Source: an uncultured Acidobacteriota bacterium (GTDB taxonomy: Bacteria > Acidobacteriota > Vicinamibacteria > Fen-336). From it: 64,000 bases of DNA. The translations under genes and the position numbers were made by a program. Where the stretch lies: NCBI GenBank assembly GCA_902826455.1, contig CADEEV010000002.1, positions 62,001 through 126,000 of the forward strand, in the 5' to 3' direction. Under the pieces are notes generated by a model. The model did no database searches and had not been told where the DNA came from. It saw only the letters and a program-made list of their open reading frames with translations. Positions 49,188 through 61,259 of this stretch are shown piece after piece; the stretch's first letter is position 1; each line of letters starts with the position of its first letter.

Positions 49188-51056
49188 GTGAGCGGGACCC
49201 TCGTCATCTACGCGCCGGCCGCTCGCGAGGCGGCGCGCCGCCGCGAGGCGGAGGGCGCCCGCATCCTGTGCTGGGACGACGCCTTGCCGTCCCTCGCCGA
49301 GCGGGACGCGGTCGACGAGGCGGCCATGGCCTGGACGAAGGCCTGGGGCCGCCATCCCCTCGTCGAAGGCCGCTCGATCCGCGAGCTCGCCACCTGGAAG
49401 GGCGTGTCGCTCTGGTGGTTCGCGGAGATCTATCTCTACTACAGCACCCGCGGGCCGAAACACGCGCGCATCGTCGACACGGCCCTGCGCGTGCTCGAGC
49501 GCGAGGCACCGGCCGAGGTCGAGGCGCTGGGACTTCCGGCGGTCGAGAGCGTCCTGATCGGCCGCGCGTGCACGGCGCTCGCCATCCTCTTCCACGGGCC
49601 GCGCCACGTGCCCGGCCTCGGGGTCCGGCTCGCCACGCTGCGCGTCTCGCTCCTCGCCCGCCTCAACACCCTGCGGGCCCTCGCGACCACGCTGAAGGCC
49701 CACTTGCAGGGCCTTCCGGTGCGCGCGCCCGCCTCGCGTCCGCGCGTGCTCTTCCTCTCCCACGCCGCTTTCTGGCGGGACGGCAAGGAGCACTACTTCG
49801 GCAGCCTGATCCCGGGAGTCGAAGCCGACGCCGCGCTCGAGGCGATCGTCGTCGGCGTCGGGCCACAGGCGCCGTTCCGGCATCGCGGCCGGCGCGACAC
49901 CCTGGGCGAGTGGGTACGGTTGCGGCCCGATGCCGCGCCCTACGAACCCCTGGGCCGGCACCGTCGCTGGCCGGTTTTTCTCGAGCTCTTGCGGGCCACG
50001 CGCGAGATCCGTCGGCTCTGGCACAGGCTGAAGGACAGCGCGCCCATGCGCGAGGCCTTCTCGCATCGGGGCGTCTCGTTCGCCGACCTCTCCGGGCCCG
50101 ATCTGGCCGAGACCCTGCTCCTGCAGCTGCCGTGGTCGGTGCTCGTCTACGAGGAGCTCCAGGCGCTCTTCGCCCGGGTCCAGCCTGCCGAGCTGTGCCT
50201 GTACGCCGAGTCGAGCGGGCTCGGGCGTATCGCGGTGGCGGCCGCCCGCGCCGCCGGCGTGCGCAGCGTCGCGATCCAGCACGGCATCCTCTATCCGAAG
50301 TACTTCTCGTACCGCCACGACGCCGACGAGCCCGACAGCCCGCTGCCCGACAGGACGGCCCTCTTCGGCGAGGCCGCGCGCGAGTTCCTCACGACGGAGG
50401 GCCGCTATCCGCCCGAGAGCCTGGTGCTGACCGGCAGCCCGAAGTTCGACGAGATCGTGTCGATGACGCGGAGCTGGGATCGCGCCGAGCTGCGCCGTCG
50501 CCTGGGCGCCGCCCCCGAGGAGCGGCTGCTCGTCGTCGCGGGCCGCTACGAAGGCATCGTGGGCTACCAGTCGATCGGCAGCGCCTTCGCCGGCTTCGTG
50601 CGCGCGATCGAGGCGCTGCAGACCGTGCGCTGCGTCGTGAAGCCGCATCCCGCCGAGAACCCCGAGGCGTACCAGCCCACGCTACGGGCGAGCGGCACGA
50701 CCAAGACGCGCCTCGCTCCGGCCGGCATGAGCCTTCTCGAGATGCTCCACGCCTGCGATGCCCTCGTGACCGTCGAGTCGCTCTCCGCCGTCGAGGCGCT
50801 CGCGGCCTCGCGGCCCGTGCTGCTGCTCAATACGCCCACGAACCTGCGCGAGCTCGAGGACGCGGGCGTCGCGCTGGGCGTGCCCGAGGGCCAGGATCCC
50901 GAGCCCGCGCTGCGGGCGCTGCTCTTCGACGCCGCGACCCAGGCGGGGCTCGCGGCCGCCCGCGAGCGCTACCTGTCGCGCGTCGCCTGCGGCATCGACG
51001 GACGCGCCACCGAACGCCTGCTAACGCTGATCCGCGAGGTCGCCCTCCGCCGCTAG
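49188..51056 (+). CDS. GT-B-like surface polysaccharide / glycerophosphotransferase-type enzyme
   Basis: A 622-residue cytoplasmic or membrane-associated protein. The C-terminal half has the fold of capsule polysaccharide and CDP-glycerol glycerophosphotransferases: VRSVAIQHGILYPKYFSYRH, FGEAAREFLTTEG, LVLTGSPKFDEIVSM, VVKPHPAENPEAYQP (with the conserved K-P-H-P) and VTVESLSAVEALAASRPVLL. The first 230 residues are helical with a hydrophobic segment near 80-130 and no recognised family. The order suggests transfer of a sugar or glycerol-phosphate to a glycan. It overlaps the convergent GNAT gene by 36 bp; that gene, an ACP and FkbH form the adjacent divergent cluster. Confidence 0.8.
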   Translation: MSGTLVIYAPAAREAARRREAEGARILCWDDALPSLAERDAVDEAAMAWTKAWGRHPLVEGRSIRELATWKGVSLWWFAEIYLYYSTRGPKHARIVDTALRVLEREAPAEVEALGLPAVESVLIGRACTALAILFHGPRHVPGLGVRLATLRVSLLARLNTLRALATTLKAHLQGLPVRAPASRPRVLFLSHAAFWRDGKEHYFGSLIPGVEADAALEAIVVGVGPQAPFRHRGRRDTLGEWVRLRPDAAPYEPLGRHRRWPVFLELLRATREIRRLWHRLKDSAPMREAFSHRGVSFADLSGPDLAETLLLQLPWSVLVYEELQALFARVQPAELCLYAESSGLGRIAVAAARAAGVRSVAIQHGILYPKYFSYRHDADEPDSPLPDRTALFGEAAREFLTTEGRYPPESLVLTGSPKFDEIVSMTRSWDRAELRRRLGAAPEERLLVVAGRYEGIVGYQSIGSAFAGFVRAIEALQTVRCVVKPHPAENPEAYQPTLRASGTTKTRLAPAGMSLLEMLHACDALVTVESLSAVEALAASRPVLLLNTPTNLRELEDAGVALGVPEGQDPEPALRALLFDAATQAGLAAARERYLSRVACGIDGRATERLLTLIREVALRR

Positions 51057-52079
51057 GCCGGCCTCGTCGAGGAACGGCCGGCGCAGGCCGTTGTCGCCCC
51101 AGTCCAGGTTGACCAGGTACGAGGAGGCGTCCGCGGGCAGCGCGATCGGCCCCTTCAGGGTTCCGACAGCCAGGGGCCGGGCGCCTTCGCGGCGGAACCC
51201 GAAGCCCTCGAACACCCGCTGCATCGCGGTGTTGAGACTCGTCAGGATCACGGTGCGCGGCGCGACGTCCGCCGCGCCCACCTCCAGCGCTGCCAGGAGC
51301 ATGCCCTGGGCGAGCGCCAGGGCGTCGTCCGCATCGCCGTGGGCCACGATCAATCGCGAGGGGCTGTCGTTGATCACGACGAACCCGGCCGGCGCGCCGC
51401 GGCGCAGGATCCGGAACAGTCGATAGCGCACGAAGGGCAGCCGCAGGTCGTAACGCCAGCGCAGGTAGTCGAGGTCGGGAGCGAACCGGAACGGGAACGC
51501 GGAAGTTGCGGGCGCGAGGCCGTCCACGTACTCGTGCTCCTCGCGTACCGCGAGGACGTCGCGTACCCCCGCCGCGAGGCGCGTCGCGAAGGCGGGCAAC
51601 GGACGCCGCGCCACGCGGCGCAGCAGCGTCTTCGCGGCCCGCCTCCAGGCGGCCTCGCCCGGACGTGGGGCGTAGGGCGGATTGAGGACGTAGGTCGGCA
51701 CCTCCGGTGCGTAGGCCCAGTTCCGCGCCCGCGTGATCTTGTGGGTATCGGCGCTGCCTCCGAACACGATGCCGGCGCCGGCGCGCTTCATCCACTGCAT
51801 GAACAACAGGCCGCCGGCGCCCGGCTGCAGCGCGTAGAAGTTCGTGGCGAAGCCGAGGAACAGCTCGCGGCCGTCGGCCTCGAAGCGCATGCGGTCGATG
51901 CCGATGCTGCCCTCGACGCGCTCGTCGTCTCCGAAGAGGAGGAACAGCCGGCACCAGTCCTGCGTCGTGTAGTAGTGGTCGACGAAGGGCCGGTGCGCGA
52001 GCGCCGAGTTTCGGCCGAAGGCCGGGCTTGCGGCCTTCAGGGCCTCGAAGTGCTCGGGGCGGTACTCGACTAGGCGCAC
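51021..52079 (-). CDS. GNAT-fold acyltransferase of the FkbH-ACP module
   Basis: A 352-residue protein with two GNAT-like halves. The N-terminal part has VEYRPEHFEALKAAS and FLGFATNFYALQPGAGGLLF, and the middle ARNWAYAPEVPTYVLNPPYA. The C-terminal half reads YLRWRYDLRLPFVRYRLFRI, GFVVINDSPSRLIVAHG, LSLAQ-like helix ALAQGMLLAALEVG and TSLNTAMQRVFEGFGFRREG, typical of FemAB-like or Lnt-like acyltransferases that take acyl groups from carrier proteins. Being third in the operon after FkbH and an ACP suggests it moves the ACP-bound group onto a glycan or lipid. The start is GTG 52079. Confidence 0.78.
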   Translation of the reverse strand: MRLVEYRPEHFEALKAASPAFGRNSALAHRPFVDHYYTTQDWCRLFLLFGDDERVEGSIGIDRMRFEADGRELFLGFATNFYALQPGAGGLLFMQWMKRAGAGIVFGGSADTHKITRARNWAYAPEVPTYVLNPPYAPRPGEAAWRRAAKTLLRRVARRPLPAFATRLAAGVRDVLAVREEHEYVDGLAPATSAFPFRFAPDLDYLRWRYDLRLPFVRYRLFRILRRGAPAGFVVINDSPSRLIVAHGDADDALALAQGMLLAALEVGAADVAPRTVILTSLNTAMQRVFEGFGFRREGARPLAVGTLKGPIALPADASSYLVNLDWGDNGLRRPFLDEAGLAAEGDLADQR

Positions 52080-52086
52080 GCGCCGG

Positions 52087-52326
52087 TCACGCGGTGTCGC
52101 GGGCCTCGAGGTCCGCGAGGATCTTCGCGAACGACGTCTGGCGCGCCAGGTCCTCGGGCTCGAAGCTCACGCCGAACTCCTCCTCCACCAGGCTGAGCAG
52201 CGTGATCGTCGCGACGGAGTCCCATGCGGCGATCGAGCCGAGGCTGGCCTCGGCGATCTGCGCCTCGTCCAGGTCGGGAAAGACGGCCGCGAAGCACCGC
52301 CGCAGGCGCGTCTCCGTGTCGGCCAT
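52087..52326 (-). CDS. Acyl carrier protein
   Basis: A 79-residue acidic carrier protein. The phosphopantetheine site is WDSVATITLL with Ser35 (a DSV variant of the usual DSL), in helix 2; helix 1 is ETRLRRCFAAVFPDL and helix 3 LVEEEFGVSFEPEDLA. The start ATG 52326 overlaps the FkbH stop as TGATG. ACPs next to FkbH typically carry glyceryl or hydroxymalonyl units. Being a stand-alone ACP outside fatty-acid genes, it is dedicated to this locus. Confidence 0.9.
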   Translation of the reverse strand: MADTETRLRRCFAAVFPDLDEAQIAEASLGSIAAWDSVATITLLSLVEEEFGVSFEPEDLARQTSFAKILADLEARDTA

Positions 52327-54053
52327 CAGGCCTCCTCCACCTGGTGGAAGAGCCGCGGGCAACGCTCGAAGAACTCGGCGCGCGCGAGCCGGGAGCGCGG
52401 CTCGGGTGGGCGGCCCAGGAAGGCCGCGAAGAAGTCGCGCAGCGGCCCGTTGCGCGGCGTGGGGGTGAAGTCGAGGACGAGGGCGTCGGCGTCGAAGCGC
52501 TCGAAGAGGGCCGCGAGGCAGCGATGCTCGATGCGGCGCGAGAAGGCGCGGCAGCTCAGCACGAAGGTCTCGAGGACGAGCGTGCGGTCCTCGAGGCGGC
52601 CCGCGAGCACGGCGATCTTGCCGAGCCGCCCGTACTTGTCGTCGTAGGACACGACGAGGCGGAACGCGCCCGGCCCCTCGAGCGCCTCGTGCCAGGCCGC
52701 CTCGCTCGGCCGGGCTCCGTTGAGGTTGAACTGGTTGGTCTTGAGCACGAGCTCGAGGGCCCGCGGGTCGGAGGAGTCGGTCGCGAAGTGCAGCTGGACC
52801 CGGGCCTGGGCCTGCTCGAGGAACGCCTCGGGCGCCTCGCCGCTTTCCGTACGGACGGCGCGTAGAGCCTGGTTCGCCCGCAGGCTCTCCCGGCGCAGGC
52901 GGTCCTCCTCGAGGACGCGGGGCTTCGCGAACAGATCGCGCAGGTGGGCGAGGAAGCTCGGCAGCGACGCGTCCTCGCGCTCGGGAAACGAGAGGCACGT
53001 CATGTCGGGGTAGGCCGCCTGGACCTCGGCCCGCTCCATCGGGCTGTCGTCGACGAACACGACGCTCTCGCTACCCACGTTCCACTCCGCGAGGATGCGG
53101 CCCACCGCAGCCGACTTGGGCCCCCAGCTCGCCTCGACGGGGGAGAGCCGATCCGCGGGCAGCACCAGGTCCTCGCGGGCGAGCGCCTCGGCGACGAGCT
53201 CGGGATCGTTCTTGCTGGCGGCCGCGAGCAGGGCGCCCGAATCGGACAGGCCGCGCAGGAGCTGTTGGTACAGGCCGTGGGCCTGGGCGTTGTGGTCGAG
53301 GTCCCAGGCGACGCCCGCGACGCCGTCCTCTCCGAGGATCCCGTGCCACAGCGTGCCGTCGAGGTCGGTGATCAGGCCCTTCCGCGGCGAGGGCGGAAGG
53401 AGGGTCTGCACCAGGAGCGCCCCGACGTGCCAGGCGTGAGGCCGCGAATAGGGGAAACCCGAGACGAGGTCGCTGCGGGAATCGAGGCGCTCGGCCGCAG
53501 GCGAGAGCTCGGCGAGGCGCTCGCTGCTGACGACCCGGGCGCCGGCCGCCGCCACGCGCTCGGCGAACGTCGCGAGCGCGGTGCGCAGCGCGAGCTCGAG
53601 GCGGCCCGCCTGCCATCCCGGCGAGGGAAGGAGCGGCGACAGTGGGAGGGTGGGGAGGCACACGGCAACGGGCAGGCGGGCCGCAAGGGTCTCGATCCGC
53701 GCCCCCAGCCGGTCCAGGGCACGCCCGGACTCGGCGATCACGTCCTCGGTGGCCGACAGGCCATCGCCCCCGGCCCGCCGCAAGCCCAGCCGCGCGTCGA
53801 GGTCGGGCCACTCCATCGCGACGCACAGCCCCTCGAGTCCTTCGGCGGAGACGGACTCGAGGCTCGCAGCCAGGTCGCCGAAGCTGCCGGTCTCGATCTG
53901 CACGGGCTGCCGGGCGTGGCGCTTCTGGAGCTCTGCGGCCAGGAACGTCTGCAGGTGGAGGGGAGTGAAGCTACTGGCCAGGAAGCACTTCCAGGGCGCC
54001 GCGCCGTCCTGGGGCGCCGCGCGCAGGACCTCCAGGGCTTCGATCAGCTTCAC
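52326..54053 (-). CDS. FkbH-like HAD-IIIC protein (glyceryl-ACP forming type)
   Basis: A 575-residue enzyme. The N-terminal third (about 1-215) is an SGNH-like region with CFLASSFTPLHLQTFLAAEL. The HAD-IIIC domain (about 215-370) has the catalytic ITDLDGTLWHGILGEDG, AAASKNDPELVAEAL (motif II/III) and VFVDDSPMERAEV. The C-terminal 190 residues resemble the family's acyl-transfer region: LKTNQFNLNGARPSE and LETFVLSCRAFSRRIEH. In polyketide pathways FkbH loads a 1,3-bisphosphoglycerate-derived glyceryl group on an ACP. The start GTG 54053 is preferred over 54068 because TACCAT (54065-54060) ends 6 nt before it. Confidence 0.88.
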   Translation of the reverse strand: MKLIEALEVLRAAPQDGAAPWKCFLASSFTPLHLQTFLAAELQKRHARQPVQIETGSFGDLAASLESVSAEGLEGLCVAMEWPDLDARLGLRRAGGDGLSATEDVIAESGRALDRLGARIETLAARLPVAVCLPTLPLSPLLPSPGWQAGRLELALRTALATFAERVAAAGARVVSSERLAELSPAAERLDSRSDLVSGFPYSRPHAWHVGALLVQTLLPPSPRKGLITDLDGTLWHGILGEDGVAGVAWDLDHNAQAHGLYQQLLRGLSDSGALLAAASKNDPELVAEALAREDLVLPADRLSPVEASWGPKSAAVGRILAEWNVGSESVVFVDDSPMERAEVQAAYPDMTCLSFPEREDASLPSFLAHLRDLFAKPRVLEEDRLRRESLRANQALRAVRTESGEAPEAFLEQAQARVQLHFATDSSDPRALELVLKTNQFNLNGARPSEAAWHEALEGPGAFRLVVSYDDKYGRLGKIAVLAGRLEDRTLVLETFVLSCRAFSRRIEHRCLAALFERFDADALVLDFTPTPRNGPLRDFFAAFLGRPPEPRSRLARAEFFERCPRLFHQVEEA

Positions 54054-54059
54054 GGACTG

Positions 54060-54069
54060 ATGGTACACT
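54060..54069. promoter_or_regulatory. Overlapping divergent -10 hexamers between fkbH-like and deacetylase genes
   Basis: On the minus strand TACCAT (54065-54060) ends 6 nt before GTG 54053. On the plus strand TACACT (54064-54069) ends 10 nt before TTG 54080. The hexamers share two bases, so two polymerases could not occupy both at once. Confidence 0.5.
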
Positions 54070-54079
54070 CGAAGCCCTC

Positions 54080-55066
54080 TTGACCCGTATCGACGCCAGT
54101 TCTTCCCGGCCCGCGATCCTCGTGGGCATCGATACCGAAGCCGACAACCAGTGGTCCGAGTCGGCCCGCCGCACGCTCGAGGTGAAGAACGCCGAGCGAC
54201 TGCCGGGCCTCCAGGCGCTGCTCGAGCGTCACGGCGTGCGGCCGACCTACCTCGTCACCCACGAGATGGCCACGACCGAGTCTTCGGCAGCGATCCTTCG
54301 CGACCTCGGCCGTGCCCGGCGTTGCGAGATCGGCGCCCACCTCCACCCCTGGAGCTCGCCGCCGCTCTCGTCGCAGCCGGACGCGGGTCACCCGTTTCCG
54401 AGCCAGCTCGACACGCCGCTGCTCACCCGGCAGCTCCGGGAGTTGACCGAGGTCATCGAGGCGAACCTCGGCGTCCGGCCGACCACCTACCGGGCCGGCC
54501 GCTGGGGACTCGACGAGCGCGCGCTGCCGTTGCTCGAGGAGCTCGGCTTCACGGTCGACACCAGCGTCGACCCGCTGCTGAACGAGACCCGCAAGGGCGG
54601 ACCGCTGTTCGCGGGCGCGCCCTCGCAGCCGTACCGGCCCGCCTACTCCGACGTCCGCAAGTCCGGCGGCGCCCGCATCCTCGAAGTGCCGGTGTCGTCC
54701 GGGACGATGCCGCACCTGGGCAAGCCGCTGGAGACGCTCTACACGCGCCTGCCGCCGCTGCGCTTCCGCGGCGGCCTGAAGCGGCTGGGGATCAAGCCCG
54801 TGTGGCTGCGGCCCTCGTACAACACCCTCGAGGAGATGAAGGCGTTCGCCTCGGCCCTGGCGCAGCGCGGCACGAGCTGCTTCAACATCGCGTTCCACTC
54901 GAGCGAGATGCTGCCGGGCGGCAGCCCCTACAGCCCCGACCAGCGCAGCATCGACCGCCTGCTCTCGGACCTCGAGGGCCTGCTCGAGCACCTCACCAGC
55001 CGTCTGGGCGCCGAAGGGCGCACCTTCGCGGAGTTCGCTGCCGGCTTCGAGACCCGCGCGGCGTGA
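54080..55066 (+). CDS. Polysaccharide-deacetylase (NodB-like) family protein
   Basis: A 328-residue protein with a (beta/alpha)7 deacetylase fold. The opening has ILVGIDTEADNQW (metal Asp region), then VRPTYLVTHEMATTESS and CEIGAHLHPWSSPPL with the metal His pair, and RPTTYRAGRWGLDERALPLL, followed by LEVPVSSGTMP and FNIAFHSSEMLPGG. It resembles WalW/PF01522-type deacetylases from surface glycan loci; a signal peptide is absent, so it would act in the cytoplasm on a lipid-linked precursor. The start is TTG 54080. It overlaps the methyltransferase gene through GTGA. Confidence 0.85.
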   Translation: MTRIDASSSRPAILVGIDTEADNQWSESARRTLEVKNAERLPGLQALLERHGVRPTYLVTHEMATTESSAAILRDLGRARRCEIGAHLHPWSSPPLSSQPDAGHPFPSQLDTPLLTRQLRELTEVIEANLGVRPTTYRAGRWGLDERALPLLEELGFTVDTSVDPLLNETRKGGPLFAGAPSQPYRPAYSDVRKSGGARILEVPVSSGTMPHLGKPLETLYTRLPPLRFRGGLKRLGIKPVWLRPSYNTLEEMKAFASALAQRGTSCFNIAFHSSEMLPGGSPYSPDQRSIDRLLSDLEGLLEHLTSRLGAEGRTFAEFAAGFETRAA

Positions 55067-55902
55067 GGCAGATCGACGACGCGGCCATCAAGGCCGCGGG
55101 TGCCGAGCGTTTTCGCAGCGAGTATCACTACGCGGTGTTCGAGTACCTGCGCAGCGCCAAGGTCATCCGCGCGCTGGAGCGGGGCGGCGTCAAGGTCCAC
55201 GGCCGGATCCTGGACGCCGGCTGCGGCGGCGGCGGCACGGCGCTGTCCCTGGCGGAAGAGGCGACCTTCGCCGTGGGCATCGACATCGCCGACCGCTTCG
55301 CCGGCACGGGCACGCGCCTCGCGGCCGAGAAGGACGTCCGCAACGCGGCCTTCGCCCAGGCCGACGGCAGCCGGCTGCCGTTTCGCGACGGTGTCTTCGA
55401 TCTCGTCTTCAGCCACTCGGTGATCGAGCACGTCACGCAGGCCGAGGCCTACCTGGCCGAGTGCCGTCGCGTGTTGCGCCCGGGCGGCAGCCTCTACCTG
55501 TCGACCGCGCCCTACCTTTCGCTGGCGGGCTCGCACTTCCCGAGACTGCTGGTGCCGATCCCGTTGCACCTGGTGCTGGGCCGGCCGCTCGCGTTCTGGA
55601 GCTACCGCCAGATCGGGCGCTTCGCGCCCTGGCTGTTGCAGGAGGGCAAGCACGGCAGCAGCTTCATCTCCCTGGCCGCCGAGGGGAAGATCAAGCAGGA
55701 CGACCTGCTGCAGCGCGTCACGGTGCGAGAGCTGTCGGGTTGGATCGAACGCTCCGGGTTCCGTCTCGTGCGCGAGGACCGCCACGTGACGGGCTTCTTC
55801 AAGAACTACCTGCCGGGAGCCCTCCGCCGCTGGCTGGAGCGCACGCCCTTCACCCAGGACGTGATGATCGGCCACATCGAGTGCGTCCTCGAGAAGGCCT
55901 GA
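55063..55902 (+). CDS. Class I SAM-dependent methyltransferase
   Basis: A 279-residue enzyme. The SAM-binding motif I is ILDAGCGGGGTALSLAEE near residue 48; motif II FAVGIDIADR, then FAQADGSRLPFRDGVFDLVF and HSVIEHVTQAEAYLAECRRV, and RPGGSLYLSTAPY complete the fold. The C-terminal part (about 160-279) is variable with aromatic-rich segments, likely the acceptor site. The start GTG 55063 overlaps the deacetylase stop as GTGA. Both genes probably modify a sugar of the same surface glycan. It converges on secG with adjacent stop codons. Confidence 0.9.
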   Translation: MRQIDDAAIKAAGAERFRSEYHYAVFEYLRSAKVIRALERGGVKVHGRILDAGCGGGGTALSLAEEATFAVGIDIADRFAGTGTRLAAEKDVRNAAFAQADGSRLPFRDGVFDLVFSHSVIEHVTQAEAYLAECRRVLRPGGSLYLSTAPYLSLAGSHFPRLLVPIPLHLVLGRPLAFWSYRQIGRFAPWLLQEGKHGSSFISLAAEGKIKQDDLLQRVTVRELSGWIERSGFRLVREDRHVTGFFKNYLPGALRRWLERTPFTQDVMIGHIECVLEKA

Positions 55903-56277
55903 CTACTTCGCGGCGGGGCTGGCGGCGGGCTGCGACGCGGCCGGAGCGGCGGGAGCCGTCGTGGACGGCACCACCAGCGGCACCGCGGTTGCGACGGGAG
56001 ACGGGGCCGTGGTCGGGATCTTGTCGAGAACGGAGCGGCTGCCGGGCCGGATGATCGAAAGCGCCAGGCTCGTGCACATGAACACGGCCGCGAGGATCGT
56101 CGTCGCGCGCGAGAGCACGTTGGCCGAGCCGCGCGGGCCGAAGGCCGTCTGGGTGCCGCCGCCGCCGAAGGCGCTGGCCAGGTCCTGGCCCTTGCCCTGC
56201 TGCAGGAGAACGACGCCGATCAGGAACAGGCACGCGAGCACGTGCAGGGTGAGGACGAGGTAGTAGGCGATGTACAT
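55903..56277 (-). CDS. secG: SecG preprotein translocase subunit
   Basis: A 124-residue SecYEG accessory subunit. The first helix is YYLVLTLHVLACLFLIGVVLLQ, followed by the conserved loop QQGKGQDLASAFGGGGTQTAF and FGPRGSANVLSRATTILA leading into the second helix (VFMCTSLALSII). The final 40 residues are an Ala/Pro/Thr-rich tail seen in many SecG proteins. ATG 56277 is chosen because SecG proteins start with a short MxxxYYxxLxxH segment. TATACT (56339-56334) and an AGGAAG-type ribosome-binding site lie upstream, so this gene has a normal leader of about 50 nt. Confidence 0.95.
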   Translation of the reverse strand: MYIAYYLVLTLHVLACLFLIGVVLLQQGKGQDLASAFGGGGTQTAFGPRGSANVLSRATTILAAVFMCTSLALSIIRPGSRSVLDKIPTTAPSPVATAVPLVVPSTTAPAAPAASQPAASPAAK

Positions 56278-56333
56278 TTTCTTGGCTTCCTGGACTCCAC
56301 GGGCGGTCACTCCGGCGGCCGCGCGAAACCGCA

Positions 56334-56367
56334 AGTATAGCCGCAAGCACGCGGGGCCCGCTACAAT
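56334..56367. promoter_or_regulatory. Divergent promoters of secG and the amidohydrolase
   Basis: On the minus strand TATACT (56339-56334) serves secG with a leader that holds a Shine-Dalgarno. On the plus strand TACAAT (56362-56367) ends 7 nt before ATG 56375, predicting a leaderless amidohydrolase mRNA. The pair contrasts leadered and leaderless modes within 35 bp. Confidence 0.5.
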
Positions 56368-56374
56368 CCGGGCC

Positions 56375-57757
56375 ATGCTCCGAAAGCTTCTCGTTCAAGT
56401 CCTTGTATTGCTGGCCGTTACGGGCCTGCCCGCGGCGGCCGAAAAGCCCCCGGCCACGGCCTTCATCGACGTGAACGTCGTGCCGATGGACTCGGAGCGC
56501 GTTCTGACGGGCCAGACCGTCGTGGTCGAGGGCGACCGGATCCTGTCGGTCGGCCCGTCCGCCAAGGCCACGATCCCGCGCGGCGCCACGCGCATCGCGG
56601 CGAAGGGCCGGTATCTCATGCCCGGCCTCGCGGACATGCACATCCACATCCCGGTCGAAGGCTCGGACGAGGCGAGCGCATCCAAGGAGTTCTGGCTGTT
56701 CGTGGCCCACGGCGTCACCACGGCGCGCGTGATGATCGGGCAGCCGGAGCACCTCGCGCTGCGCGACAGGATCGCGAGCGGCGCGCTGCTCGGGCCCACG
56801 CTCTACGTCGCGAGCCCGCCGCTCGGGATCAAGGCGGGGACGCTCCCGGGCGTGCCCGAGCTCAAGACGCTCGACGACGCGCGCCGCTTTCCGTCGAAGC
56901 AGAAGAAGGCCGGATACGACGCAGTCAAGATCCTCGACGACCTGACTCTCGAGCAGTACGACGCGATCGCGGCGGGATGCCGCGAGGCCGGGATCCCGCT
57001 CGTCGGCCACGTGCCCGATGCCGTGAGCCTCGAGCACGCCCTCGAGAGCCAGGCCTCGATCGAGCACCTGGCCGGCTACATCGAAGCGTTGATTCCGGCG
57101 GATCTTCGTCGCAAACCCGACCTGCGCTTCCGCGACATCCTCGGCAAGCTCGAGACCGCGCGCATCCCGGATCTCATCGTGGCCACGAAGAAGGCCCACG
57201 GCGTCAACGTGCCGACGCTCTACTTCTGGAGCGCCCTCGTCGGGAGCGACACGCCGGAGCAACTCGGGACCCGCGCGGGCCTCGAGTTCGTCCCGGCGAA
57301 GGAGAAGGCCGCCTGGGTGGAGCAGCGCACGAAGGCGCTCGCGCGCATGGGCACGCCCCCGGTCGACTATTCCTCGTACCACGCCGTGCGCGCCCAGATC
57401 ACGAAGGCCCTGTCCGACGCGGGCACCACGCTGCTTCTCGGCACGGATTCGCCCGACTTCTACAACGTCGCGGGCGTCGCCGCCCACGAAGAGCTCGACC
57501 GGCTCGTGGCCGCCGGCCTCACGCCGTACCAGGCCCTGAGCGGCGGCACTCGTGAAGCGGCGGCGTTCGTCCACGGCGAGAAGGAGTTCGGGACGATCGC
57601 GCCGGGGCTCAGGGCCGACCTCATCCTCGCGGAAGCGAACCCGCTGGCCGGCGTCGCGACGCTGCGCACGCCCGTCGGCGTGATGGTGCGCGGCCGCTGG
57701 ATCGCGCGTCCCGAGATCCAGCAGCACCTCGACGCCATCGCCGCCGAGGCGAAGTAG
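56375..57757 (+). CDS. Secreted amidohydrolase (imidazolonepropionase/prolidase-like)
   Basis: A 460-residue exported metal-dependent hydrolase. The signal peptide is KLLVQVLVLLAVTGLPAAA. The amidohydrolase core has VVVEGDRILSVGP, the metal site MPGLADMHIHIPVEG (H-x-H), the probable carboxylated Lys in YDAVKILDDLTLEQYD, IPLVGHVPDAV, ASIEHLAGYIEAL, and the final Asp in TLLLGTDSPDF. The C-terminal LAPGLRADL-like segment (TIAPGLRADLILAEANPL) is standard for the family. Related acidobacterial enzymes cleave Xaa-Pro or cyclic amide substrates; the substrate here is open. No further gene of a pathway is nearby. Confidence 0.9.
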   Translation: MLRKLLVQVLVLLAVTGLPAAAEKPPATAFIDVNVVPMDSERVLTGQTVVVEGDRILSVGPSAKATIPRGATRIAAKGRYLMPGLADMHIHIPVEGSDEASASKEFWLFVAHGVTTARVMIGQPEHLALRDRIASGALLGPTLYVASPPLGIKAGTLPGVPELKTLDDARRFPSKQKKAGYDAVKILDDLTLEQYDAIAAGCREAGIPLVGHVPDAVSLEHALESQASIEHLAGYIEALIPADLRRKPDLRFRDILGKLETARIPDLIVATKKAHGVNVPTLYFWSALVGSDTPEQLGTRAGLEFVPAKEKAAWVEQRTKALARMGTPPVDYSSYHAVRAQITKALSDAGTTLLLGTDSPDFYNVAGVAAHEELDRLVAAGLTPYQALSGGTREAAAFVHGEKEFGTIAPGLRADLILAEANPLAGVATLRTPVGVMVRGRWIARPEIQQHLDAIAAEAK

Positions 57758-57773
57758 GGCGTTCGACTCGTGC

Positions 57774-57779
57774 TACGCT
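57774..57779 (+). promoter_or_regulatory. -10 hexamer of a small membrane-protein gene
   Basis: TACGCT ends 7 nt before GTG 57787 in the gap behind the amidohydrolase gene. Confidence 0.4.
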
Positions 57780-57786
57780 GAAGGCC

Positions 57787-58017
57787 GTGACTCGCCGCGA
57801 CCCGGTCCGCTTCCTGCTCTTCGCGCTCTGCTGCGCGGCGATCGTGGCGGTCGCCCTCACTCCGCTCGGCGCGGCGGCCCTGCTCGCGGTCCTGCCGGTC
57901 GTGCTCGCACTCGTCGTCGTGACGGAGGGCCGCCGCTTCGCTCCCGTCCTCGTTCCCCTCCCGGTCTCGCCCCGCCTCGCGCGCACGTCGACCCCGCGCG
58001 CGCCGCCCGTCTCCTAG
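57787..58017 (+). CDS. Small membrane protein (76 aa), unknown function
   Basis: A 76-residue protein with a basic start (TRRDPVRF), two adjacent hydrophobic stretches (about 9-28 FLLFALCCAAIVAVALTPLG and 29-47), and a Pro/Arg-rich tail (SPRLARTSTPRAPPVS). The N-terminus could be a signal peptide or anchor. I do not recognise it. Evidence that it is real: TACGCT ends exactly 7 nt before GTG 57787, the same arrangement as larger genes in the window, and it fills the space between two genes of the same strand. Confidence 0.55.
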   Translation: MTRRDPVRFLLFALCCAAIVAVALTPLGAAALLAVLPVVLALVVVTEGRRFAPVLVPLPVSPRLARTSTPRAPPVS

Positions 58018-58059
58018 TCGCTTCCGCGCCGTTCCGCGTGAACTCGACAGGAGAGGTGT

Positions 58060-58254
58060 ATGTGGAGAGGGAAGGGCGACTTCCGGTCGCTGCTGCTGTG
58101 CGTGGCCCTGGCCTTCGGCTCGGTGGCCGGCGTGCCGATGCGTCCGGACGAGATCCAGCGCCTGATGCGCACGCTGGCGACGGGCGCCATCGTCCAGACG
58201 GCGCCCGACGAGGCGGAAGAAGGCGACCGTGTCGACGGCGACGGGGTCAGTTGA
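58060..58254 (+). CDS. Small exported or membrane-anchored protein (64 aa)
   Basis: A 64-residue protein: a basic start (WRGKGDF), a hydrophobic segment (SLLLCVALAFGSVAGVP), then a conserved-looking MRPDEIQRLMRTLATGAIVQ segment and an acidic tail (PDEAEEGDRVDGDG). I believe similar small proteins with an M-R-P-E-E-I-x-x-L-M segment exist in related bacteria, but cannot verify it. A good AGGAGAGG lies 4-6 nt before ATG 58060. It overlaps tpiA tail to tail by 8 bp. Function unknown. Confidence 0.6.
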   Translation: MWRGKGDFRSLLLCVALAFGSVAGVPMRPDEIQRLMRTLATGAIVQTAPDEAEEGDRVDGDGVS

Positions 58255-59001
58255 AGCGGACGATGCGCAGGAACGACTCGGCCTTGAGGCAGGCGCCGCC
58301 GACGAGGGCGCCGTCGATGTCCGACTCGGACATCAGTCCGTCGATGTTGTCGGGCTTGACGCTCCCGCCGTACAGGATGCGCTGGGCGGCGGCGACGCCC
58401 TCGCCGTGGCTCTTCGCGACCTGCTTGCGGATGAAGGCGTGGACCTCCTGGGCCTGCGCCGGGGTCGCGACCTTGCCCGTGCCGATCGCCCAGACCGGCT
58501 CGTAGGCGACGACGGCGATCGCGGCCTCCTCGGGGCTCAACTGGCGCAGCGCGCGCTCGAGCTGGCGCTCGAGCACCGCGAACATCTGGTCCGACTCGCG
58601 CTCGGCGAGCGTCTCGCCGATGCACGTGATGGGAACGAGCCCATTGTCGAAGGCGGCGCGCGCCTTCTTGCCCACGCCCTCGTCGGTCTCGCCGAAGAGC
58701 TGACGGCGCTCGGAGTGCCCGAGAAGCACGTGGCTCGCTCCCGCGTCCTTCAGCTGCGCCGGCGCGATCTCGCCGGTGAAGGCGCCTTCCTTCTCGGAGT
58801 GCATCGTCTGGCCCGCGACGTGGATGCCGCTGCCGCGCAGGGCTTCGGCGACGCTCGCGAGCGCCGTGAACGGCGGCGCCACGAGGACCTCGCGGGAGAC
58901 CGGATCCTTGTCGAGGCTCGCGCGCAACTCGGCGACGAGGGCCTTCGCCTCGGCGAGCGTCTTGTACATCTTCCAGTTGCCGGCCAGGAAGGGCTTGCGC
59001 A

Positions 59002-59002
<1 letters not shown>
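58247..59002 (-). CDS. tpiA: Triosephosphate isomerase
   Basis: A 251-residue TIM-barrel enzyme interconverting dihydroxyacetone phosphate and glyceraldehyde 3-phosphate. The opening FLAGNWKMYKT carries the substrate-binding Asn9 and Lys11. The catalytic His is in LLGHSERRQLFGE (near 97) and the catalytic Glu in VVAYEPVWAIGTGK (near 168). The phosphate loop ends with ILYGGSVKPDNI. ATG 59002 overlaps the pgk stop as TGATG. It is the third gene of the gap-pgk-tpiA operon; length is normal. Confidence 0.97.
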
Positions 59003-60186
<1,184 letters not shown>

Positions 60187-60187
60187 C

Positions 60188-61259
<1,072 letters not shown>

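Follow-up and report, generated by a model that had tools for sequence, protein, structure and literature searches.

In a 64,000-nucleotide stretch of contig CADEEV010000002.1 from an uncultured member of the Acidobacteriota (the whole stretch is the window, and plain coordinates count from its first nucleotide) lies a three-gene unit encoding an FkbH-type enzyme, a free-standing acyl carrier protein (ACP) and a GNAT acyltransferase, a linked trio that probably makes a glycerate unit, holds it on the carrier protein and attaches it to a cell-surface sugar. The genes form one tight operon on the minus strand, from 54053 to 51021; open reading frames (ORFs), motifs and operon spacing agree with the unit proposed there by the initial annotation. 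FkbH (575 amino acids; 52326..54053) joins an SGNH-like N-terminal domain, a HAD-IIIC phosphatase and a GNAT-like C-terminal domain. Its stop codon overlaps the start of the ACP (79 amino acids; 52087..52326) in the sequence TGATG, and 7 nt separate the ACP stop from the start of a tandem-GNAT acyltransferase (c20 family; 352 amino acids; 51021..52079), all on the same strand. We place the FkbH start at the GTG at 54053, which lines up with the MKLIEAL start of its relatives; the longest ORF has its start at 54068. Coding periodicity is strong in all three genes, with a third-position GC of 0.92-0.96, and the composition of the region shows no anomaly, leading us to reject recent acquisition of foreign DNA.

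With TIGR01686 the FkbH protein gives 208 bits (curated cut-off 146.65), and it contains the motifs DxDxT, SKN, K318, DD340/341 and SCR, each kept in 97-100% of its clade; across 124 aligned FkbH domains, including those linked to polyketide synthases (PKSs), DxDxT, DD and SCR show little or no variation. The cysteine of the invariant SCR is Cys506 when numbered from the longer ORF starting at 54068. A structure model of moderate quality (predicted local distance difference test (pLDDT) 78, predicted template-modelling score (pTM) 0.54) was matched by Foldseek to SGNH-like proteins at the N terminus (EstL5; BF1531, PDB 3SLR), to the HAD phosphatase MDP-1 and, at the C terminus, to GNAT-like folds. 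The only FkbH relative with a solved structure that we found is BF1531 of Bacteroides fragilis: FkbH residues 224-362 match its HAD-IIIC part and the fold match spans ~400 columns, but it was deposited as an uncharacterised protein and 3SLR covers its N-terminal part only. Enzymes of the FkbH family load a glyceryl unit from 1,3-bisphosphoglycerate onto an ACP (PMC7489565, PMC8949500). Because its domains and the conserved DxDxT, DD and SCR motifs are in place, the window FkbH looks intact and is predicted to load the ACP unaided, and its own GNAT-like C-terminal domain would therefore leave the separate GNAT free to act downstream.

The ACP matches PF00550 with 23.5 bits (cut-off 20.8), and the phosphopantetheine serine on which the initial annotation's ACP-dependent route hinged is retained (Ser37, in WDSV). 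The GNAT sequence matches no Pfam or NCBIfam family, NodA (PF02474) included. Its AlphaFold2 model (pLDDT 88, pTM 0.86) retrieves in Foldseek the tandem GNATs of the Eis, clavulanate and N-myristoyltransferase type (probability 1.00, E values down to 4.8e-11), and the assignment draws on this fold and on alignment with coenzyme A (CoA)-type relatives. The canonical Q/RxxGxG/A acyl-CoA loop is missing: at its site, which the model places between strand 71-83 and helix 88-100, the protein has QPGAGG and a 4-residue deletion.

Relatives of the FkbH enzyme and their loci

A profile scan of genome contigs yielded 80 FkbH loci, most of them with proteins 42-51% identical along the full length. In a tree of 124 domains, ten of them linked to PKSs or nonribosomal peptide synthetases (NRPSs), the window FkbH falls in a 76-sequence clade (SH-like approximate likelihood-ratio test (SH-aLRT) support 100), drawn mostly from Acidobacteriota and Planctomycetota, that contains none of those ten and includes a Paludibaculum plasmid glycan locus and phage-labelled contigs. 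Cultivable relatives that carry the FkbH gene include Paludibaculum fermentans and Singulisphaera sp. GP187. No ketosynthase occurs in any of the 80 loci or in the window, by a probe that detected the ketosynthases of PKS-linked FkbH loci at E values below 1e-60. In at least 66 of the 80, FkbH has an ACP gene within 600 bp and in the same orientation; among the others, some end at a contig edge or have the ACP slightly farther away. Beside the FkbH–ACP pair, 42 of the 80 loci carry an acyltransferase, from four GNAT families or of hexapeptide, AAC(3) or WcbI type. A glycosyltransferase count over the 80 loci was not used, single-sequence tblastn being too insensitive for it. We reject a PKS origin on the tree, the gene context and the ketosynthase search with its positive control: the trio is not a stray polyketide fragment, and two features named in the initial annotation, a unit without a PKS and its setting among surface-glycan genes, extend to its relatives, where the glycan context repeats with a GNAT, hexapeptide, WcbI or AAC(3)-type enzyme in the acyltransferase slot.

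Individual loci show other arrangements. On a phage-labelled contig (L143:7509-12793), FkbH, ACP and a GNAT (PF13302) are followed by VOC, Gfo/Idh/MocA and DegT aminotransferase genes in an apparent N-acyl amino-sugar cassette, and a Maritalea myrionectae plasmid (L158) brings together pseB, FkbH, SDR, DUF4910 and sialate-synthase-type genes as a candidate glyceroyl-nonulosonate locus; both hint that FkbH–ACP pairs serve amino sugars. We take DUF4910 to be related to Cj1295, a protein to which we return below. Trios of ACP, FkbH and a small GNAT lie on three IMG/VR phage contigs (L139:7768-9489, L140:7752-9511 and L142:7780-9450), with ACP and FkbH fused in a single 435-amino-acid ORF in L140; a NAMPT gene is near the trios of L140 and L142 and a RecF/SMC-type ATPase gene near that of L139, and no glycan genes are in view around the three. 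The window genome itself has a second, distantly related FkbH on contig C1 (L024:7208-11754); an MBOAT acyltransferase gene adjoins it, together with a gene for a GDSL-like protein and a divergent ORF that is ACP-like and has a WTSL motif. MBOAT genes stand beside FkbH there and in two plasmid loci, where relatives of this second FkbH form ACP–FkbH pairs with MBOAT; the locus may be the window module's counterpart in the periplasm. No plasmid relatives were found for the window GNAT.

The flanking deacetylase operon and its acyltransferase

Head to head with FkbH, ~26 bp away, and so where the initial annotation had set them, are two plus-strand genes: a NodB-like polysaccharide deacetylase (54080..55066; PF01522, 22.2 bits, and conserved residues) and an S-adenosylmethionine-dependent methyltransferase (55063..55902; PF08241, 81 bits). 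D18, D22, H87 and H89 of the deacetylase are invariant among its relatives; no signal peptide is apparent on inspection by eye, and the enzyme is probably cytoplasmic. Of 13 family-level relatives, 8 have a deacetylase with 57-65% identity to that of the window, and all 8 also have a CoA-type tandem GNAT, adjacent in 7; the gene order in these 7 is CoA-type GNAT, deacetylase, GT4 glycosyltransferase, methyltransferase. Four of the other five relatives have neither GNAT nor deacetylase, and in the fifth, a 78%-complete genome, GNAT fragments are present and no deacetylase was found. The window's deacetylase and methyltransferase are 57-71% identical to those of the family operon (the methyltransferase alone, 57-71%), and both are present in the window genome (estimated 100% complete), in which no CoA-type GNAT was found and the GT4 homologue lies on a different contig. 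The FkbH–ACP–GNAT unit occupies the place of the CoA-type GNAT, and this natural exchange is the strongest clue that we have. More distant, class-level relatives again have the set of methyltransferase, GNAT and deacetylase, without FkbH.

The window GNAT family is tied both to FkbH and to deacetylases. It occurs in six other FkbH loci (32-52% identity), all of which have a polysaccharide deacetylase as well as an ACP next to FkbH, and in none of 395 further genomes from the phylum. Deacetylases are found in 6/6 of these loci versus 15/74 other FkbH loci (p=0.0002), or in 5/6 when one found solely by a looser query is left out (p=0.003). The FkbHs of these loci are not monophyletic in the tree, so this pairing has originated, or been transferred, on more than one occasion. 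The canonical RxxGxG loop is present in 13/13 CoA-type GNAT homologues and lost in 6/6 FkbH-linked GNATs, which have a four-residue deletion and a QPGAGG-type sequence. From this alignment we infer that the donor of the window GNAT is the ACP, not CoA. On the simplest reading of the sequences, acyl transfer after deacetylation would have been kept while the donor and the acyl group changed.

Tail to tail with the GNAT, whose 3' end it overlaps by 36 bp, runs a plus-strand gene for a 622-amino-acid capsule or surface-polysaccharide glycosyltransferase (49188..51056; PF05159 (Capsule_synth), 24.5 bits). It has weak NCBIfam matches to the surface-carbohydrate families NF046086, TIGR04396 and TIGR04326, and homologues 48-49% identical lie ~8 kb from the operon of GNAT, deacetylase, GT4 and methyltransferase in two family-level relatives. 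The initial annotation had likened this protein to CDP-glycerol transferases; it matches PF05159 and not PF04464 (CDP-glycerol glycerophosphotransferase), and the label and the link that it implied were dropped. On the other side, one base past the methyltransferase gene, begin secG, tpi, pgk and gap (55903-61198). The pgk and gap products handle 1,3-bisphosphoglycerate, the FkbH substrate; none of the three genes gap, pgk and tpi had a match in the loci fetched from 8 family-level and 9 class-level relatives, and we treat the adjacency as coincidence.

A putative acyl exchange and its alternatives

The account that we favour, by modest confidence on the better side of even, is a cytoplasmic acyl-swap module for a surface glycan, in which an ACP charged by FkbH supplies the group that the GNAT places on an amine freed by the deacetylase. 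FkbH would dephosphorylate 1,3-bisphosphoglycerate and pass the glyceryl unit through its invariant cysteine to the dedicated ACP's phosphopantetheine; the NodB-like deacetylase would remove the N-acetyl group from an N-acetylhexosamine (HexNAc)-type residue of a sugar precursor or oligosaccharide; the tandem GNAT would move glyceryl from ACP, not CoA, to the freed amine; and the methyltransferase would then modify the product, which glycosyltransferases would incorporate into capsule or exopolysaccharide. The model starts from what is observed in gene content, operon structure, motifs, fold, the family-wide pairing of FkbH with ACP and the replacement of the CoA-type GNAT. From there, glyceryl as the acyl group, the ACP as donor for the GNAT, an amine as acceptor and the identity of the sugar are what we infer. 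The initial annotation had proposed an ACP-dependent acyl route to a surface sugar; the absence of PKS genes and the recurring glycan context sustain that part, the CDP-glycerol link falls away, and the locus points to something more specific, N-acylation after deacetylation.

Several points count against this account. The deacetylase's score lies just below the PF01522 cut-off of 23.1, and its first motif reads DTE where DD is usual; the altered loop speaks for an ACP donor only indirectly; most of the 80 loci are contigs of metagenome-assembled genomes (MAGs), selected by similarity and not at random; and support in the tree, which came from a quick search, was measured by SH-aLRT. In addition, VOC genes occur in 21 of the 80 loci and MaoC–SDR genes likewise in 21, and in these members of the FkbH clade the acyl group is probably processed further. 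Such genes also speak for a rival that we rate as possible, if well short of likely, namely that the same ACP route delivers an acyl group other than plain glyceryl (for example lactyl, 3-hydroxypropionyl or O-methylglyceryl) or makes an ester instead of an amide, as do the methyltransferase close to the trio, the di-O-methylated glyceroyl of Campylobacter jejuni (PMC3068675) and the MBOAT or hexapeptide O-acyltransferase types beside FkbH in other loci. The window, however, has neither a VOC nor a MaoC–SDR gene, and its module is thus a minimal version; the methyltransferase is kept in relatives that lack FkbH and hence is not glyceryl-specific; and a GNAT together with a deacetylase favours an amine acceptor.

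The remaining rivals fare worse. Some PKS loading modules have GNAT-like glyceryl-transfer domains, and FkbH, ACP and GNAT share one operon, so the 352-amino-acid GNAT might itself carry glyceryl from FkbH to the ACP for use elsewhere; this is improbable, because the invariant SCR already sits in a GNAT-like C-terminal domain of FkbH itself, and most FkbH–ACP pairs of the clade have no homologue of the window GNAT, which instead tracks deacetylases and replaces the CoA-type GNAT of a conserved deacetylase operon. A lipid or protein target for the trio, with a neighbourhood that is only loosely linked, would suit the N-myristoyltransferases among the fold matches and the many unrelated neighbours within 8 kb in MAG contigs, but repeated links with deacetylases, glycosyltransferases, O-antigen ligase/Wzy and amino-sugar genes make it about as improbable. 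Least credible, and in our view very unlikely, is service in trans to a polyketide or nonribosomal peptide: the genome does have ketosynthases, on contigs C4, C13, C14 and C60, but there is none on the window's own contig (C2), no FabH-, acyl-CoA-dehydrogenase- or FkbM-type partner adjoins the trio, the FkbH clade contains no PKS- or NRPS-linked member, and none of the relatives' 80 loci holds a ketosynthase.

Known systems and implications

In Nod-factor synthesis, NodB frees an amine, NodA re-acylates it from the dedicated ACP NodF, and the methyltransferase NodS modifies the product. The acyl-swap module would share with it a NodB-family deacetylase, an acyltransferase fed by a dedicated ACP and a methyltransferase, but its acyl group would be loaded by FkbH, not by a fatty-acid ketosynthase, and its acyltransferase is not NodA by sequence; the annotated neighbours include no gene identifiable as a NodC-type chitin-oligosaccharide synthase. 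In Pseudomonas syringae, the viosamine island (vioS, vioR, acp, vioB, vioM) likewise feeds an N-acyltransferase from a dedicated ACP system (PMC3927599), and there too ACP, loader, N-acyltransferase and methyltransferase decorate an amino sugar of a surface glycan; its loader, however, is a β-ketoacyl-ACP synthase III (KAS III) with a reductase, giving 3-hydroxybutyryl, and it has no deacetylase step. The logic of deacetylase, GNAT and ACP in the window thus resembles, by analogy, NodB/NodA/NodF and the viosamine island. The glycerate-utilisation operons of tetronate pathways, such as Mad7/Mad8, pair an FkbH-like enzyme with a dedicated free-standing ACP in a proposed route from 1,3-bisphosphoglycerate to glyceryl-S-ACP (PMC7489565). 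Unlike them, the window has no FabH-like ring-forming enzyme, no Agg4/Agg5-type pair and no PKS, but a GNAT and a deacetylase, and its FkbH belongs to a separate clade; FabH-like, oxidoreductase or PKS partners are absent from the annotated neighbours, and no ketosynthase was found in the window or on contig C2.

A precedent is Campylobacter jejuni, whose flagellin bears di-O-methylglyceroyl pseudaminic acid (PMC3068675) and in whose locus the FkbH-domain gene cj1302 is found (PMC7099621): a glyceric-acid substituent on a surface glycan together with an FkbH-domain gene. The gene shown to be necessary there is Cj1295, however, and the sugar and the flagellin context differ (PMC3068675, PMC7099621). 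FkbH enzymes have been described almost exclusively in antibiotic assembly lines. We found no direct report that joins FkbH to O-antigen or polysaccharide in a literature search whose coverage leaves out most subscription journals, the link to surface glycans being just a passing mention of cj1302. We regard ACP-fed glycan acylation as already known, and the proposed FkbH loader as what is new here.

An FkbH clade partnered by ACPs in glycan loci would account for the arrival of glyceroyl and related groups on bacterial surface sugars, for which no loading enzyme is named in the C. jejuni papers (PMC3068675, PMC7099621), and would serve as a genomic marker to predict glyceroyl-type glycans. 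GNATs fed by CoA or by ACP beside the same deacetylase would offer a ready-made comparison of donor switching. More broadly, and tentatively, with confidence a little short of even, we suggest a widespread, undescribed form of glycan acylation in which FkbH and ACP draw glyceryl from glycolysis, GNATs have switched from CoA to ACP, deacetylated amino sugars are the acceptors and the modules are swappable. If so, module swaps that replace CoA-dependent acyltransferases would alter glycan chemistry.

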